DNA of 42,382 nt, taken from positions 1 through 42,382 of the forward strand of contig JAFAHZ010000314.1 of NCBI GenBank assembly GCA_019236975.1, given 5' to 3'. This stretch comes from Vulcanimicrobiota bacterium. GTDB lineage: Bacteria > Vulcanimicrobiota > Vulcanimicrobiia > Vulcanimicrobiales > Vulcanimicrobiaceae. Below are positions 19,117-24,265 of the stretch, piece after piece (position 1 is the first letter of the stretch; each line of letters begins with the position of its first letter). The translations under genes were made by a program, and so were the position numbers. Below the pieces are notes generated by a model. That model saw nothing but the letters and a program-made list of their open reading frames with translations. It was not told the DNA's origin and searched no databases.

Positions 19117-19533
19117 TTAGATACCCGTGAGCGACAAAATGAACGCGCTGACGACGAACACGACCGCGACGAAGCCGGTCATACGCTTGAGCTGTTCGTC
19201 GGCACCCAGGCGCCCGCGATAAGCCGACTCCACGCGCCCGCCGATCGAACCCGTGAGGCCTTCTTGCTTGGTGGTCTGTACGGCCAGCAACGCGACGAGC
19301 GCGATCGCCGAAAGGATGAAGATGCCGGCGATGCCGTGCGTCAGCCAAGGAAAGTGCTGCGCTACGGCCGTCTGCACCGGAGCGGCGGACGGGGCGGCAA
19401 GCGGTTGCGGCGGCAACGCCTGCGCGGGCAGCGGAGATGCGCCGGCGGGACCCGCCGACGGCGGCGCTGCGACCGGATTTGCTGCGGCTGGAGGCGCACC
19501 GGCGGACGATGCGGCGAGAACGAACGAAAACAA
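19117..19533 (-). CDS. secG: SecG preprotein translocase subunit with Ala/Pro-rich N-terminal extension, ~138 aa
   Basis: The C-terminal half is SecG: hydrophobic segment IAGIFILSAIALVALLAVQ, the loop TTKQEGLTGSIGGRVESAYR and GRLGADEQLKRM, then a second TM (TGFVAVVFVVSAFILSLTGI). SecG assists SecYEG in export. Upstream of TM1 lies an unusual Ala/Pro-rich stretch of about 65 residues. I start at TTG 19533, 11 bases after an AAAGGAG ribosome site (19545-19551); a longer ATG frame to 19608 is less likely. Start confidence is moderate. Confidence 0.75.
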   Translation of the reverse strand: MFSFVLAASSAGAPPAAANPVAAPPSAGPAGASPLPAQALPPQPLAAPSAAPVQTAVAQHFPWLTHGIAGIFILSAIALVALLAVQTTKQEGLTGSIGGRVESAYRGRLGADEQLKRMTGFVAVVFVVSAFILSLTGI

Positions 19534-19583
19534 CGCGGGGTTTTCTCCTTTGTAATAGGCGGCATCTCCGTCCACAGAACCGG

Positions 19584-19660
19584 CGGAGGGCCCCCAATCC
19601 GACCTCAACTTTACGACCGATGGGGCAAGGCCGCCTGCACCTACGCAGGAGTCCTCTCCG
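19584..19660 (+). ncRNA. Candidate structured 5' leader (three-way junction)
   Basis: Three helices can be drawn: CGGAGGG (19584-19590) with CCTCTCCG (19653-19660), CCCCAATC (19592-19599) with GATGGGG (19619-19625, one bulge), and CCTGC (19634-19638) with GCAGG (19645-19649). A G-U pair in the closing helix favours the plus strand. It ends 20 bases before the GTG of the PAP2-like gene. It matches no riboswitch consensus I can recall; chance pairing in GC-rich DNA is possible. Confidence 0.3.
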
Positions 19661-19680
19661 ATAAGACTCTAGTAGCAGGC

Positions 19681-20316
19681 GTGTTGGAACCCAACCAATC
19701 GGTCGTTCCGCTCAAGCAACGCCGGGTATGGCGCGATCTCGCGCGCATTCTATCGACGATCTTCAACCCGTTCCTAACCGCACTCGCGCTTTTCGTTATC
19801 CTATCGCACGCCGGCGCGCGCGACACGCTCGATTTCTGGCGTCTGTTGTTCGTGTCGACGTTCTTCACGTCGATCGGGCCGATGCTCTACGTCTTCTGGC
19901 TGTACGCAACCGATCGCATCTCCGATCTCGACATGTCCGTGCGAAGCGAGCGCGAAACGGTGTTCAGCACGTTCGTCGTGTTCTATCTCCTCGGCGCCGG
20001 TGCGCTGTGGCTGGTGCACGCACCGCGCGTCATGATCGCGACGATGCTCGGTTATTTTGCGGCCACCCTGATCGTGGGGTACATCACGCGCTATTGGAAG
20101 ATCAGCACGCACGCGCTTGGCATTACCGCACCGCTGTTCGCTCTTTCGATCTTGTACGGCCGGCAGCCCCTGCCGTTTCTCGTTTTGATACCGATGGTGT
20201 GCTGGGCGCGGGTCTATCTCAAGGCGCACACCGTCGCGCAGGTGGTCGCCGGCGCCGCCTTGGCGGTCGTTTCGACCGGTCTCTTCTTCTACGTCTTCCA
20301 CGTGAGCTCGCTATGA
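19681..20316 (+). CDS. PAP2-like integral membrane protein, ~211 aa
   Basis: About six membrane helices are visible ([101 protein letters not shown]). [12 protein letters not shown] and [16 protein letters not shown] resemble PAP2 motifs (PSGH and SR..H...D), but the Ser and Asp of the last motif read Ala and Gln. It may be a divergent or inactive lipid phosphatase. GTG 19681 is the best start I can find; no clear ribosome site. Its stop overlaps the ATG of the chemoreceptor gene. Confidence 0.7.
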
Positions 20317-22952
20317 TCGCCGAACGCCACGAGGGCGAGTTCGATAAATTCAACGCCAGCATCTCTGCGGCCGTCGAGGCGGTGCGCCAAACCTCCGAGA
20401 CGATTGCCGCGACGGCGCAAGAGCAGACGACGCTTATGGTCGCCCTTTCCGAAAGCGCCGGTATCCTTGCCAAACAATCGCACGAAACCGCCGAGCGCCT
20501 CGCAGCGGCACAATCGCAGGCGCGCGCGGCCGCCGAAGATCTCGGCAACTCGTTCGAGGTGGTCGAGACGCTGCTGACGTCGGTGCAGCAGCTCGCCGAA
20601 CTCTCGGCCGCAACCGCAGCCGCCATGGACGATTTCGGCCGGCTCATGAGCGAGGTCGGCCGCATGACGGACTTTGTCGAAGAGGTCTCGGACGAAACCC
20701 AGCTGCTCGCGCTGAATGCGGCGATTGAAGCGGCGCGAGCCGGGCAGCATGGATTGGGATTTGCGGTCGTAGCCGGTGAGGTCGGACGGCTCGCTAAGAC
20801 CACCAGCGAATCGACCTCGACGATCAAGCACCTCGTCGGCGACGTGCAGCGCGAAGCCGAAGCGACCATTGCCGCAGTGCGGGCCAACGCACAGCGGTCC
20901 GCCGAATCCGCGCCGCTGGCCGATGCGGCGCACTCCTCGCTCGGCGAAATCGCCGAACTCGCCGCCGATCTGTCGGTCGCAATCGATCGCGCCGTCGTGG
21001 CTGGTCGCGAGCACAGCACGCTAGCCGCACAGATGCGCCACGATACCGACGGACTCGCGAGCGCCGCCGCCCATCAGGGCCGGCAAGCGCTGGAATCGGC
21101 CTTTGCGACGCAGCGGTTGTCCTACTACGGCGCTGAGATTGCGTACATCTCGCGCGCGCGCAGCGTCGCTAAATCCGAGCGCACGTCGCTGCGCGTCGCG
21201 ACGCTATTGCCGCCGGGCTATCCACCGTCGCGCGCGTGGGAACACGTCAAAGAGCGCGCCGCCGAGCTCTCGGGGGGACGATTGCAGCTCGAGCTGGAGA
21301 TTCCGTTCGGCGGCGGGTCGGAGTTCGAGGCGCTGCTGCGCGTACGATCGGGCGAGCTGGACATGGTAAGCGTAACCACCTTCGTTGCCGGTGCGCTGCT
21401 GCCGTTAGCGCAGCTCTTCGATCTGCCGTTCGTCTTCAGCGACCTGCGCGAAGCGCACGCCGTGCTCGACGGCCCGCTCGGCAAACACGTGCTCGCGTCG
21501 TTCGGTTCGTTCGGCGTCACCGGTATGGCGTATTTCGAGAACGGAATGCGGCACTTTACGAACTCGCTGCGGCCGATCGCTCGCCCGCACGACATGAAGC
21601 GCATGCGCGTTCGCATTCAGGATTCGGTCGTGTATCTCGCGCTCATGCACGCCTTGGGCGCAAGTCCGAAAGTTATTCCGTTCCCGCAGCTGCGCCGAGC
21701 GTTGGCCGACCACGAAGTCGACGCGCAGGAAAATCCGCTGCCGAATATCCTCGGCGCGCGCCTGCACGAAGTGCAAAGCTACCTCACGCTCACCGCACAC
21801 GCATACAACACGCAAGTAGTGCTCGCCAACGTGGAACGGATGCACGCGCTCACCGACGACGATCGCGACGTGCTGCACGTCGCCTTCTCCGAGGCCACCG
21901 ACGTCCACCGCCGGCTCGCCGCCGAGGAGGAGCTGCACGCGATCGCCGAGTTGCGCAAACGGCTGCAGATCCACGAGCTCGAGCCCACCGAGCGCGAAGC
22001 GTTCGTCAGCGCCGCACGGTTCGTTTGGGAACGCATGGAGCCGCTCTTCCCCACCGACGTGTATCGCCTGCTCGTCGCGCGAAACCTCGGAGCCTGGCAC
22101 CCCAAGACGGCCATCGCCGATCGCGGCCATCAAAGCTTTACCTTGGACGATATCGTTACGTCGATCGACGACTCGGTTCGCTCGGTTCGCAGTACCGGCG
22201 ACGGAATCTCCGTACTGGCGCGTTCGCAGATTGCCGGCCTGGAGGCGCTCGCGCAGCACGCCGCGCGCCTTAGTGCCAGCAACCGTACGCTGGCGGGAGA
22301 GTTTTCACAGCTGCGCGACCGGTTCGCGGCGGTGGCGCCGCAAGTCGAAACGATGCGCGGGACGGTCGATCACCTCATCTCCACGATCGAGACGTTATCG
22401 TCTATGGCGCTTCAAAGCCGCAAAGCCCTCGATCAGTTCGCGAATTCGATGAAGCAGATCGTCGAGATCATCGCGCTCGTCCGATCGGTGTCCGACAAAA
22501 CGAACCTTTTGGCGCTCAATGCCGCGATTGAGGCGGCGCGCGCCGGCGACTTCGGTAAGGGTTTCAACGTCGTTGCCGGCGAGGTGCGCAATCTCGCCGA
22601 GAAAACCAAGGCCTCGACCAAAGAGATTCGGATGGTTCTTACCGATCTCGAACAGCGCGGGAAGGAAGCCGCCGTCGCGATCGGATCGGGCGTTTCCAAA
22701 GCCGAGCATAGTTCCCGCCAAGCGCGCGCCGCTCAGGAGGCGTTCGGGCGCATCGAAACGTTCGCATTTTCCGCTTCGCGCACGCTGGGCGACGCGCACG
22801 AAGCCGCCGAGGCCGAATCGCAGCGCTCGCACGCCATGTCGGGAGACTATTCGCAGATGGCGACGCTCGTCGACAACTACGCTAACGACAGTACGCGCGC
22901 GCTCGGCGTTACGGTGGAGCTGGAACACCAGCGCAAAGCGCTCTTCGCCTAG
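20313..22952 (+). CDS. MCP-DctP-MCP fusion: chemoreceptor with internal TRAP solute-binding domain, 879 aa
   Basis: ATG 20313 overlaps the preceding stop (ATGA). Residues about 15-250 form a long helical methyl-accepting signalling module with the hairpin-tip sequence [20 protein letters not shown] (about 125-144). Residues about 292-585 are a TRAP-transporter DctP domain: [62 protein letters not shown] (likely ligand-binding Arg near 434), [20 protein letters not shown] and DAQENP. Residues about 610-879 form a second signalling module with tip [21 protein letters not shown] see no TM helix or signal peptide, so it is probably cytosolic. DctP domains normally work in the periplasm. Expected role: sensing an organic acid and signalling to CheA; untested. 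Confidence 0.88.
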
Positions 22953-23368
22953 CGCGAGTCGACCGTGATGTTCTTCCAGAGCTCGGCCGCGCGAGCGACG
23001 AACTCCTCACGCTCCACCCCGAGGCGGCGCTCGGTTTCGGGCATGGTTGGCGGAAGGACCGCCAGCAGCACGTCGCGATCGTGCGATTCGCCGAGCGCAT
23101 CCTGAATGGCGGCGAGTTTTTGGGCGAGCAGCTCCAGTTCCCGGTAGCGATGCGAAAATCGTTCGAGCGCGTAACGCAGCCGCTTGCACGCGATGCGAAA
23201 ATCGTGCAATGCCTGCGGCTCTCGCGATTCGAGCGCGACGGCGAGCGCCAGCACTTCCTCGTGCCGTACCCGCAGCACGCGTTCGACGACGTCCGCGACT
23301 TTGCGCGCACCGCGCAGATCGATCCGCCGCGGTTTCACGAAAACTTCGTCCTGCGCAGCCGTTTGCAC
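22949..23368 (-). CDS. CHAD domain, C-terminal half (frameshifted gene), 139 aa
   Basis: This frame holds the second half of a CHAD domain: [60 protein letters not shown], with the His and Arg/Lys set that binds polyphosphate in known CHAD proteins. Its GTG at 23368 overlaps the first half by 34 bases in another frame. Reading across the TTTT at 23340-23343 by one extra base would join the two halves. It ends with CTAG shared with the chemoreceptor stop. Either a broken gene or two coupled pieces. Confidence 0.7.
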
Positions 23369-23700
23369 GCCGTCGTCGTGGCGCGCTGTTTACGTTCGCG
23401 CAGTTGATCGAGCAGCGCGCGCGCCTCGACGTGCTCGCTTTCGTCCAGGGTTCGTTCCAGCAGCGCCAGCAAAACGGCGGCGTCGCGCGCGGCATCCGTA
23501 AAGGCAGCGGCGCGCTTGACTTGGCGGAGAAGCTTTTTTTGCCCGGCGAGATCGCGGACGTCTTCCAAGAACGAGCGCAGCCGGCGGCCCGTCGTGCGGA
23601 CGTCGTGCAGACACTCTTCCTCCGGATTCTTCAAAAAGCGGCGGCGGGCGCGCTCCAATCGGCGCCGCTCGGCGTCAATCGTTTTTGCCAGCCACTTCAT
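23335..23700 (-). CDS. CHAD domain, N-terminal half (frameshifted gene), 121 aa
   Basis: From ATG 23700 the protein MKWLAKTIDAERRRLERARR contains the first CHAD half: CLHDVRTTGRRLRSFLEDVR, LAGQKKLLRQVKRAA, TDAARDAAVLLALLERTL. It stops (KFS, TGA) just after a TTTT run, where the expected sequence continues in the -1 frame as FVKPRRID. A full CHAD is about 250-290 residues; 121 + 139 with little overlap fits one gene split by an indel. It is divergent from the GerMN gene, with only 4 bases between the two ATGs. Confidence 0.7.
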   Translation of the reverse strand: MKWLAKTIDAERRRLERARRRFLKNPEEECLHDVRTTGRRLRSFLEDVRDLAGQKKLLRQVKRAAAFTDAARDAAVLLALLERTLDESEHVEARALLDQLRERKQRATTTACKRLRRTKFS

Positions 23701-23704
23701 ACGA

Positions 23705-24265
23705 ATGAATCGTCCCCGTGCTGGGAGAATCCCTTGGGACAACGTGAGGTCGTTGAGGTTACCCCTGCTCTTACTCGTGTTGGCCCTCGTGGCGGCCGGC
23801 ACGTGGTACCTCCTCTCTCATCGACCGGGGACCGCGGGGGGAGCACTGACGGTCTACTACACCAAACTCGACGGCACGACGCTCGGTACGCTGAGCGTCT
23901 CTTTACGTCCGCAACAGCCGGGCGAGAGCGACGCCGAGCATCTGCATAACGTCGCGCTGTACGCCGCCGTCGAGGCGGTTGCCGGCCCACCGAGCGAGAT
24001 CCAGGCGATTCGATTCCCGGTGGGAACTCGCGTCCTAGACGCCCGCGTTAACGGATCGACGGCAACGGTCGATTTATCTAAGGAAGTAGCGCAGCAGCCC
24101 GGAGGCGCGTTCGCCGAGACCGGCGAGTTCAAGGCATTGGTTTATACGTTGACGGGCGTGCGCGGAATCGATGGCGTGCAGATAAAGATCGACGGCCACG
24201 TCGTGCCGACGCTACCGGGGGGGCATGTTGAACTTGATACGCCGCTTCACCGCTCAGATTTTTAA
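23705..24265 (+). CDS. GerMN-domain membrane-anchored protein, 186 aa
   Basis: One TM segment (LPLLLLVLALVAAGTWYLL, about 18-37) leads to a GerMN domain: LTVYYTKLDGTTLGTLSVSL, HNVALYAAVEAVAG, IQAIRFPVGTRVLDARVNGS, TATVDLSKEVAQQPGG, FKALVYTLTGVRGIDGVQIK and a final DGHVVPTLPGG. GerMN domains occur in GerM and LpqB and bind cell-wall or membrane partners; no spore link is implied. ATG 23705 is used; GTG 23744 would leave more room for a divergent promoter. The 3' end overlaps the amidase gene by 41 bases. Confidence 0.85.
   Translation: MNRPRAGRIPWDNVRSLRLPLLLLVLALVAAGTWYLLSHRPGTAGGALTVYYTKLDGTTLGTLSVSLRPQQPGESDAEHLHNVALYAAVEAVAGPPSEIQAIRFPVGTRVLDARVNGSTATVDLSKEVAQQPGGAFAETGEFKALVYTLTGVRGIDGVQIKIDGHVVPTLPGGHVELDTPLHRSDF

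Follow-up and report, generated by a model that had tools for sequence, protein, structure and literature searches.

A predicted cytosolic chemoreceptor of the Vulcanimicrobiaceae with a TRAP-type binding domain between two diverged MCP modules

The window (the whole stretch of DNA that was analysed, 42,382 nucleotides long) carries one 879-aa open reading frame in which Pfam finds three domains in the order MCP–DctP–MCP, as the first-pass annotation had claimed (Table 1). PF03480 (DctP) scores 206.6 bits at residues 298-575 (cut-off 23.4) and PF00015 (MCPsignal) 186.9 bits over two stretches (cut-off 34.6). The chemoreceptor tips, previously put at about residues 131 and 731, lie at 131-144 and 732-745, and the two segments said to be kept in the middle domain are both present (MKRMRVR at 428-434 and DAQENP at 470-475). 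Further, the receptor scores 198 against TIGR00787 of NCBIfam (cut-off 175), so that “TRAP solute-binding subunit” as its name would mislead. The PAP2-family neighbour upstream is also found at three related loci (L009, L011, L024), and PAP2, SecG and ABC genes recur in the neighborhoods of some relatives; no che genes and no metabolic theme were seen in the gene neighborhoods of the receptor loci. A CHAD-domain gene at 22949-23802 (-) is split across two overlapping open reading frames in different frames, with the first half of the profile at 23335-23802 and the second at 22949-23368, which indicates a frameshift, either genuine or introduced by assembly; none of the related loci showed a CHAD neighbor.

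Table 1. Coordinates of the receptor gene, its parts and its upstream neighbor (positions in the window) and of four MarR-DctP relatives (positions in the loci named)
Feature	Position	Strand	Basis or remark
PAP2-family gene in an open frame (domain in last part)	19264..20316	+	stop overlaps receptor start (ATGA)
MCP-DctP-MCP receptor gene	20313..22952	+	one 879-aa ORF; Pfam and alignment
N-terminal MCP module, residues 6-282, antiparallel helical hairpin	20328..21158	+	Pfam, AF2
Q130, at Tsr N376	20700..20702	+	every N module Q/E; every C module and all other sampled MCPs N
N-module hairpin tip (14 residues), 131-144	20703..20744	+	
L148, at Tsr R394	20754..20756	+	every N module L; C modules K/R; 49/49 other MCPs R
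G158, at Tsr R404	20784..20786	+	every N module G; C modules and 49/49 other MCPs R
Conserved junction, N module to DctP, residues 256-291	21078..21185	+	QGR.ALE.AF.TQRL.YYGAE
DctP (SBP family 7) domain, residues 292-588 (Pfam match 298-575)	21186..22076	+	Pfam, AF2, fold match
R413, first conserved TRAP SBP binding-site arginine	21549..21551	+	assigned by alignment
R434, SiaP Arg147 equivalent (carboxylate clamp)	21612..21614	+	alignment
DAQENP binding-site segment, residues 470-475	21720..21737	+	sequence
Variable, partly disordered linker, DctP to C module, residues 589-610	22077..22142	+	alignment, AF2
C-terminal MCP module, residues 611-878, hairpin	22143..22946	+	Pfam, AF2
C-module hairpin tip (14 residues), 732-745	22506..22547	+	
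MarR-DctP fusion L056	1459-3081	-	
MarR-DctP fusion L057	2078-3562	-	
MarR-DctP fusion L058	82-1557	+	
MarR-DctP fusion L059	1100-2653	+	

Hydropathy and comparison of start regions revealed no transmembrane segment and no signal peptide in the 879-aa receptor, in agreement with the initial reading. The maximum of its 19-residue Kyte-Doolittle profile is 1.76 and falls within DctP, compared with 2.45-2.67 for the other three MCPs of the home genome; the receptor is predicted to be soluble and cytosolic. The start at 20313 agrees with the start region of the homologues, and in four of these (L030, L034, L036, L038) an in-frame stop lies a few codons 5' of the start, ruling out a hidden N-terminal transmembrane segment.

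The same three-part order was found in 20 genome-contig loci (best-segment identity 55-78%), where the named organisms are Candidatus Eremiobacterota MAGs. In the whole genomes of the family, the full-length receptor is present in 23 genomes from eleven genera (56-87% identity, plus the window itself); in one further genome the gene is divided between two contigs, and another contains a fragment, for a total of about 25. An alignment of 19 receptor sequences is nearly gap-free except in the two linkers. Among the 149 genomes of the phylum that were searched, the full architecture was seen only in the host's family, and a second family of the same order has a two-part MCP-DctP fragment (L092, truncated at the contig start). 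A search of plasmids for the fusion returned 0 records in which a single place spanned 80% of the query. The architecture is not known to have been described, as the first-pass annotation noted, and our search of the open-access literature likewise found no description of DctP coupled to chemoreceptors. An artefact, whether neighboring genes joined in assembly (which that annotation had named as a possible refutation) or a DctP domain that is really periplasmic, has a negligible probability: the identical order in about 25 independent genomes excludes an assembly join, and both transmembrane segment and signal peptide are absent. Assembly join and hidden transmembrane segment were thus rejected, given the conservation of the order across genera and the low hydropathy.

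The AlphaFold2 (AF2) model of the full-length receptor (mean pLDDT 84) has a DctP fold at residues 292-588, whose best match among solved structures is 4p47 (TMt 0.89, rmsd 1.7), so that profile and fold both bear out the DctP-like middle region proposed earlier. By profile, fold and conserved arginine (R434) the domain belongs with the TRAP solute-binding proteins (SBPs), with which it shares both binding-site arginines and the QEN segment (PF03480/TIGR00787; 4p47, SiaP); unlike them it is predicted to be cytosolic, has no signal peptide and no DctQM permease partner in the home genome, and is fused to signalling modules. This family also includes sulfonate and phosphate binders. The context of the arginine in SiaP, DMKGLKL-R147-V (read from primer sequences, PMC4646407), aligns with DMKRMRV-R434-I of the receptor. 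An arginine of the R147 type occurs in 96.8% of the family and is required for high-affinity carboxylate binding (PMC4646407), and it is because of this role in TRAP binding proteins that the ligand is probably a small carboxylate.

The DctP domain of the receptor is the only one in the home genome, as it is in 11 of the 12 near-complete carriers tested (the exception, G093, comes from a DctP-rich genus), and no DctM or TRAP permease was found in the home genome, which is about 90% complete. Judged from sequence and genome content, the domain has left transport. One could take the missing TRAP permease to mean that DctP has become a mere rigid spacer, or a protein-docking module without a ligand, but this is very unlikely: R413, R434, Q472, E473 and N474 do not vary among the 19 three-part proteins, which goes beyond a spacer's needs, and the same clade of domains is also paired with a MarR DNA-binding domain, as expected of a ligand sensor.

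These relatives form a wider group. Two-part MCP-DctP proteins of about 600 aa, without the C-terminal MCP module, were seen at L052-L055, L060 and L061 (genus g37) and at L092, and are probably homodimeric; four MarR-DctP proteins occur in genera g37 and g30 (Table 1). Domains were assigned by Pfam for L052-L058 and by BLAST and by eye for L059, L060 and L061. The MarR-DctP proteins, which combine a DNA-binding domain with a TRAP-type binding domain, must be cytosolic and are probably one-component regulators. In the DctP tree, 29 cytosolic domains fall on one side of a branch with support 100/100, opposite 11 secreted SBPs from the same family, and the split holds after adding three SBPs from the PDB; the residue two positions before R434 is R in 29/29 cytosolic and K in 14/14 secreted domains. 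A single origin of the cytosolic domains appears likely, with the qualification that the global SBP sample is small. The first-pass annotation had gone on to propose a cytosolic sensor of an intracellular organic acid; that proposal keeps its conditional standing and is strengthened by the retained arginine pair, by the lack of any other DctP and of DctM, and by the MarR-DctP relatives.

Where that annotation, correct on the architecture, fell short was in the two MCP modules, since it missed their asymmetry and the reading of the receptor as a single-chain pseudo-dimer. In the AF2 model the N module has helices at residues 6-142 and 148-282, and the hairpin arms measure about 137/135 residues in the N and about 133/134 in the C module, so that a single chain holds two equal-arm MCP modules. 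The pTM of the full-length model is 0.63, and the lone N hairpin is predicted as confidently (pLDDT 89). The conserved MCP tip is perfect in both modules. At the positions of Tsr 376/394/404, all N modules have Q/E-L-G and the C modules N-K/R-R (here N731, K749 and R759, the canonical N/basic/R pattern), vs N-R-R in 49/49 other MCPs, a sample to which the two-part MCP-DctP proteins belong, as do both tips of L123, a tandem MCP without a sensor. This last protein (L123:1182-3494(-), G092:C242) is a 770-aa double MCP with a DosM-like architecture and two canonical tips. Three other sequences (L093, L094, L095) have an MCP tip (37 residues) that resembles the enterobacterial (Tsr-type) tip, possibly through horizontal transfer into the phylum.

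A tree of MCP modules pairs the N with the C modules as sister groups (support 99/90; N clade 100/99), which indicates an internal duplication, and together with the modules of the two-part proteins they are set apart from all other sampled MCPs (support 100/99). A long stem leads to the N clade (2.58 vs 1.17). This long stem and the loss of the CheW-contact arginines from the N tip would fit a homodimer that signals through its C modules and in which the N hairpin has become degenerate or regulatory and no longer docks to CheW, all the more as the two-part relatives are presumably homodimers. We consider this unlikely: conservation at the N tip is on a par with that at the C tip (0.92 vs 0.89), and the N tip retains the 14-residue core with N/E/R at Tsr 381/385/388, where decay is not expected to leave them, and opposite charges at equivalent positions suggest contact between N and C.

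The divergence around the tip is considerable, with 37 diverged positions within about 45 residues of it, 20 of them fixed N/C differences. Nine equivalent positions are strongly opposite in charge across the two modules; these include R117/E718, E123/R724, E128/K729, K162/E763, E181/R782 and E183/K784. The charge product, when summed, comes to 0.4 for N-C pairs; 968 pairings among other MCPs, each with under 45% identity, give 12.9 +/- 3.4 with a minimum of 2. The comparison is descriptive because all the sequences stem from one duplication. A scan of register shifts gave no sharp minimum at shift 0, which limits the charge evidence to this comparison. Taken together, the opposite charges and the tip asymmetry support intramolecular N:C pairing, and a natural single-chain pseudo-dimer would be the simplest reading of the asymmetry, while both kinds of difference trace to one divergence after one duplication and hence to few independent events. 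A regular-expression search of the receptor found no match to the consensus or the relaxed form of the methylation motif; CheR is present in the home genome.

CheW-domain matches in the home genome occur only on contig C197, in an operon with the order flhB-flhA-PilZ-receiver-CheC-CheA-CheW, so the CheA and CheW of this flagellar operon are the only ones detected there. The CheW has a single CheW domain and, where E. coli CheW has D107, carries an acidic residue. CheW matches were found in 22 of the 25 receptor carriers. Among 99 genomes of the family, the receptor is present in 25 and FliG in 46; 24 of these 25 also have FliG (Fisher p=2e-9, uncorrected for common ancestry), and the one carrier without it is a 61% complete MAG. 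Since the receptor tracks FliG and the che genes lie in the flagellar operon, its output is most probably flagellar. Genomes of genus g35 (G077-G084) have CheA/CheW and MCP matches, and no FliG match was detected in them.

The single-domain CheW also bears on a comparison with DosM of the V. cholerae F9 cytoplasmic arrays, which is likewise soluble and has two signalling domains. In a DosM-like rod, two chains would pair N:N and C:C, the central DctP domains would form a dimer from which the hairpins extend outward, and the tips would reach into two opposed CheA/CheW layers of a cytoplasmic array, just as DosM, one soluble receptor with two signalling domains, forms a rod in V. cholerae (PMC7534058); moreover, a sensor-less tandem MCP (L123) is present in the host's family. 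Such a rod is nevertheless quite unlikely here. It needs CheW at both ends, and the N tip is without R394/R404 in every homologue; both tips of L123 are canonical, unlike that N tip; and 98% of DosM homologues are sensor-less and the F9 CheW is triple (PMC9321776), whereas the CheW found here is single-domain and in the flagellar operon. Membership in DosM itself was rejected, because the central DctP sensor, the single-domain CheW and the asymmetric tips differ from the defining features of the F9 system, as does the use of a flagellar-operon CheA.

In a receptor dimer, one subunit occupies the trimer axis, and its partner lies on the outer side and faces CheA/CheW (PMC4692393). In the E. coli core complex, it is the outer subunit of each dimer that forms the strong contacts with CheW, namely E18-R394 and D107-R404 (PMC6954272). 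Tsr R404 is also engaged with E402 in a salt bridge between dimers (PMC6954272, PMC6746300); its loss therefore cannot be assigned to the outer face alone, and the asymmetry is more certain than the allocation of inner and outer roles. Engineered Tsr~Tsr receptors, which are single chains, are able to signal (PMC4692393).

Against this background, we think it rather probable that the protein is a soluble, cytosolic, single-chain chemoreceptor with paired hairpins, the N module inner and the C module outer, bridged by DctP as a carboxylate sensor. The one chain carries two MCP hairpins whose base ends are joined through the DctP domain. These hairpins would pair with each other, so that one polypeptide would form the four-helix bundle that normally needs two subunits. 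The N module, without the CheW-contact arginines, would take the place of the inner subunit at the trimer axis, and the C module, with its canonical tip, would lie outside and touch CheW or CheA-P5. Residues and fold suggest that a small intracellular carboxylate or similar anion is bound between the DctP lobes via R413 and R434. Closure of the lobes, from which the chain ends lead into the hairpins, would then shift one hairpin against the other and switch CheA; the conserved junction between the N module and DctP (mean conservation 0.89 over residues 256-283) is a candidate signal-transfer element. From genome content, the signal would pass via the flagellar-operon CheA/CheW to the motor, giving taxis dependent on metabolism and not on outside sensing. 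The N:C pairing, the roles of the modules, the class of ligand and the direction of signalling are all inferred. More tentatively, we suggest as a possibility a natural single chain with fixed roles, in which duplication of an MCP module around a captured cytosolic DctP domain gave the inner and outer functions, for which other MCPs use a single sequence, a sequence each, and closure of DctP became the switch.

Soluble tandem MCPs and DosM are already known, the former for example from Rhodospirillum centenum with their roles unexplored (PMC4692393); it is the sensor-bridged form with specialised tips that is new. Like the natural tandem MCPs and Tsr~Tsr, the receptor has two MCP modules per polypeptide, with a covalent pseudo-dimer proposed, and it shares predicted solubility with the former; unlike both, it is bridged by a ligand-binding domain and its tips have diverged, Tsr~Tsr being an engineered receptor that is symmetric and lies in the membrane. 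MCPs that have a single cytoplasmic sensory domain, such as the soluble PAS-type ones, also combine cytosolic sensing with MCP output, but the present receptor differs from them in its DctP sensor, the central position of that sensor and its two output modules.

The inner and outer subunits of a receptor differ in their contacts, and ordinary mutagenesis cannot change one alone (PMC4692393). If the two halves of this receptor are indeed fixed in their roles, its diverged tips would reveal which tip residues serve the inner and which the outer role, and it would offer an asymmetric scaffold on which the question of the receptor halves would be directly testable. Beyond the receptor itself, these proteins suggest that a TRAP binding domain has been relocated to the cytosol as a general sensor, with both MCP and MarR outputs.
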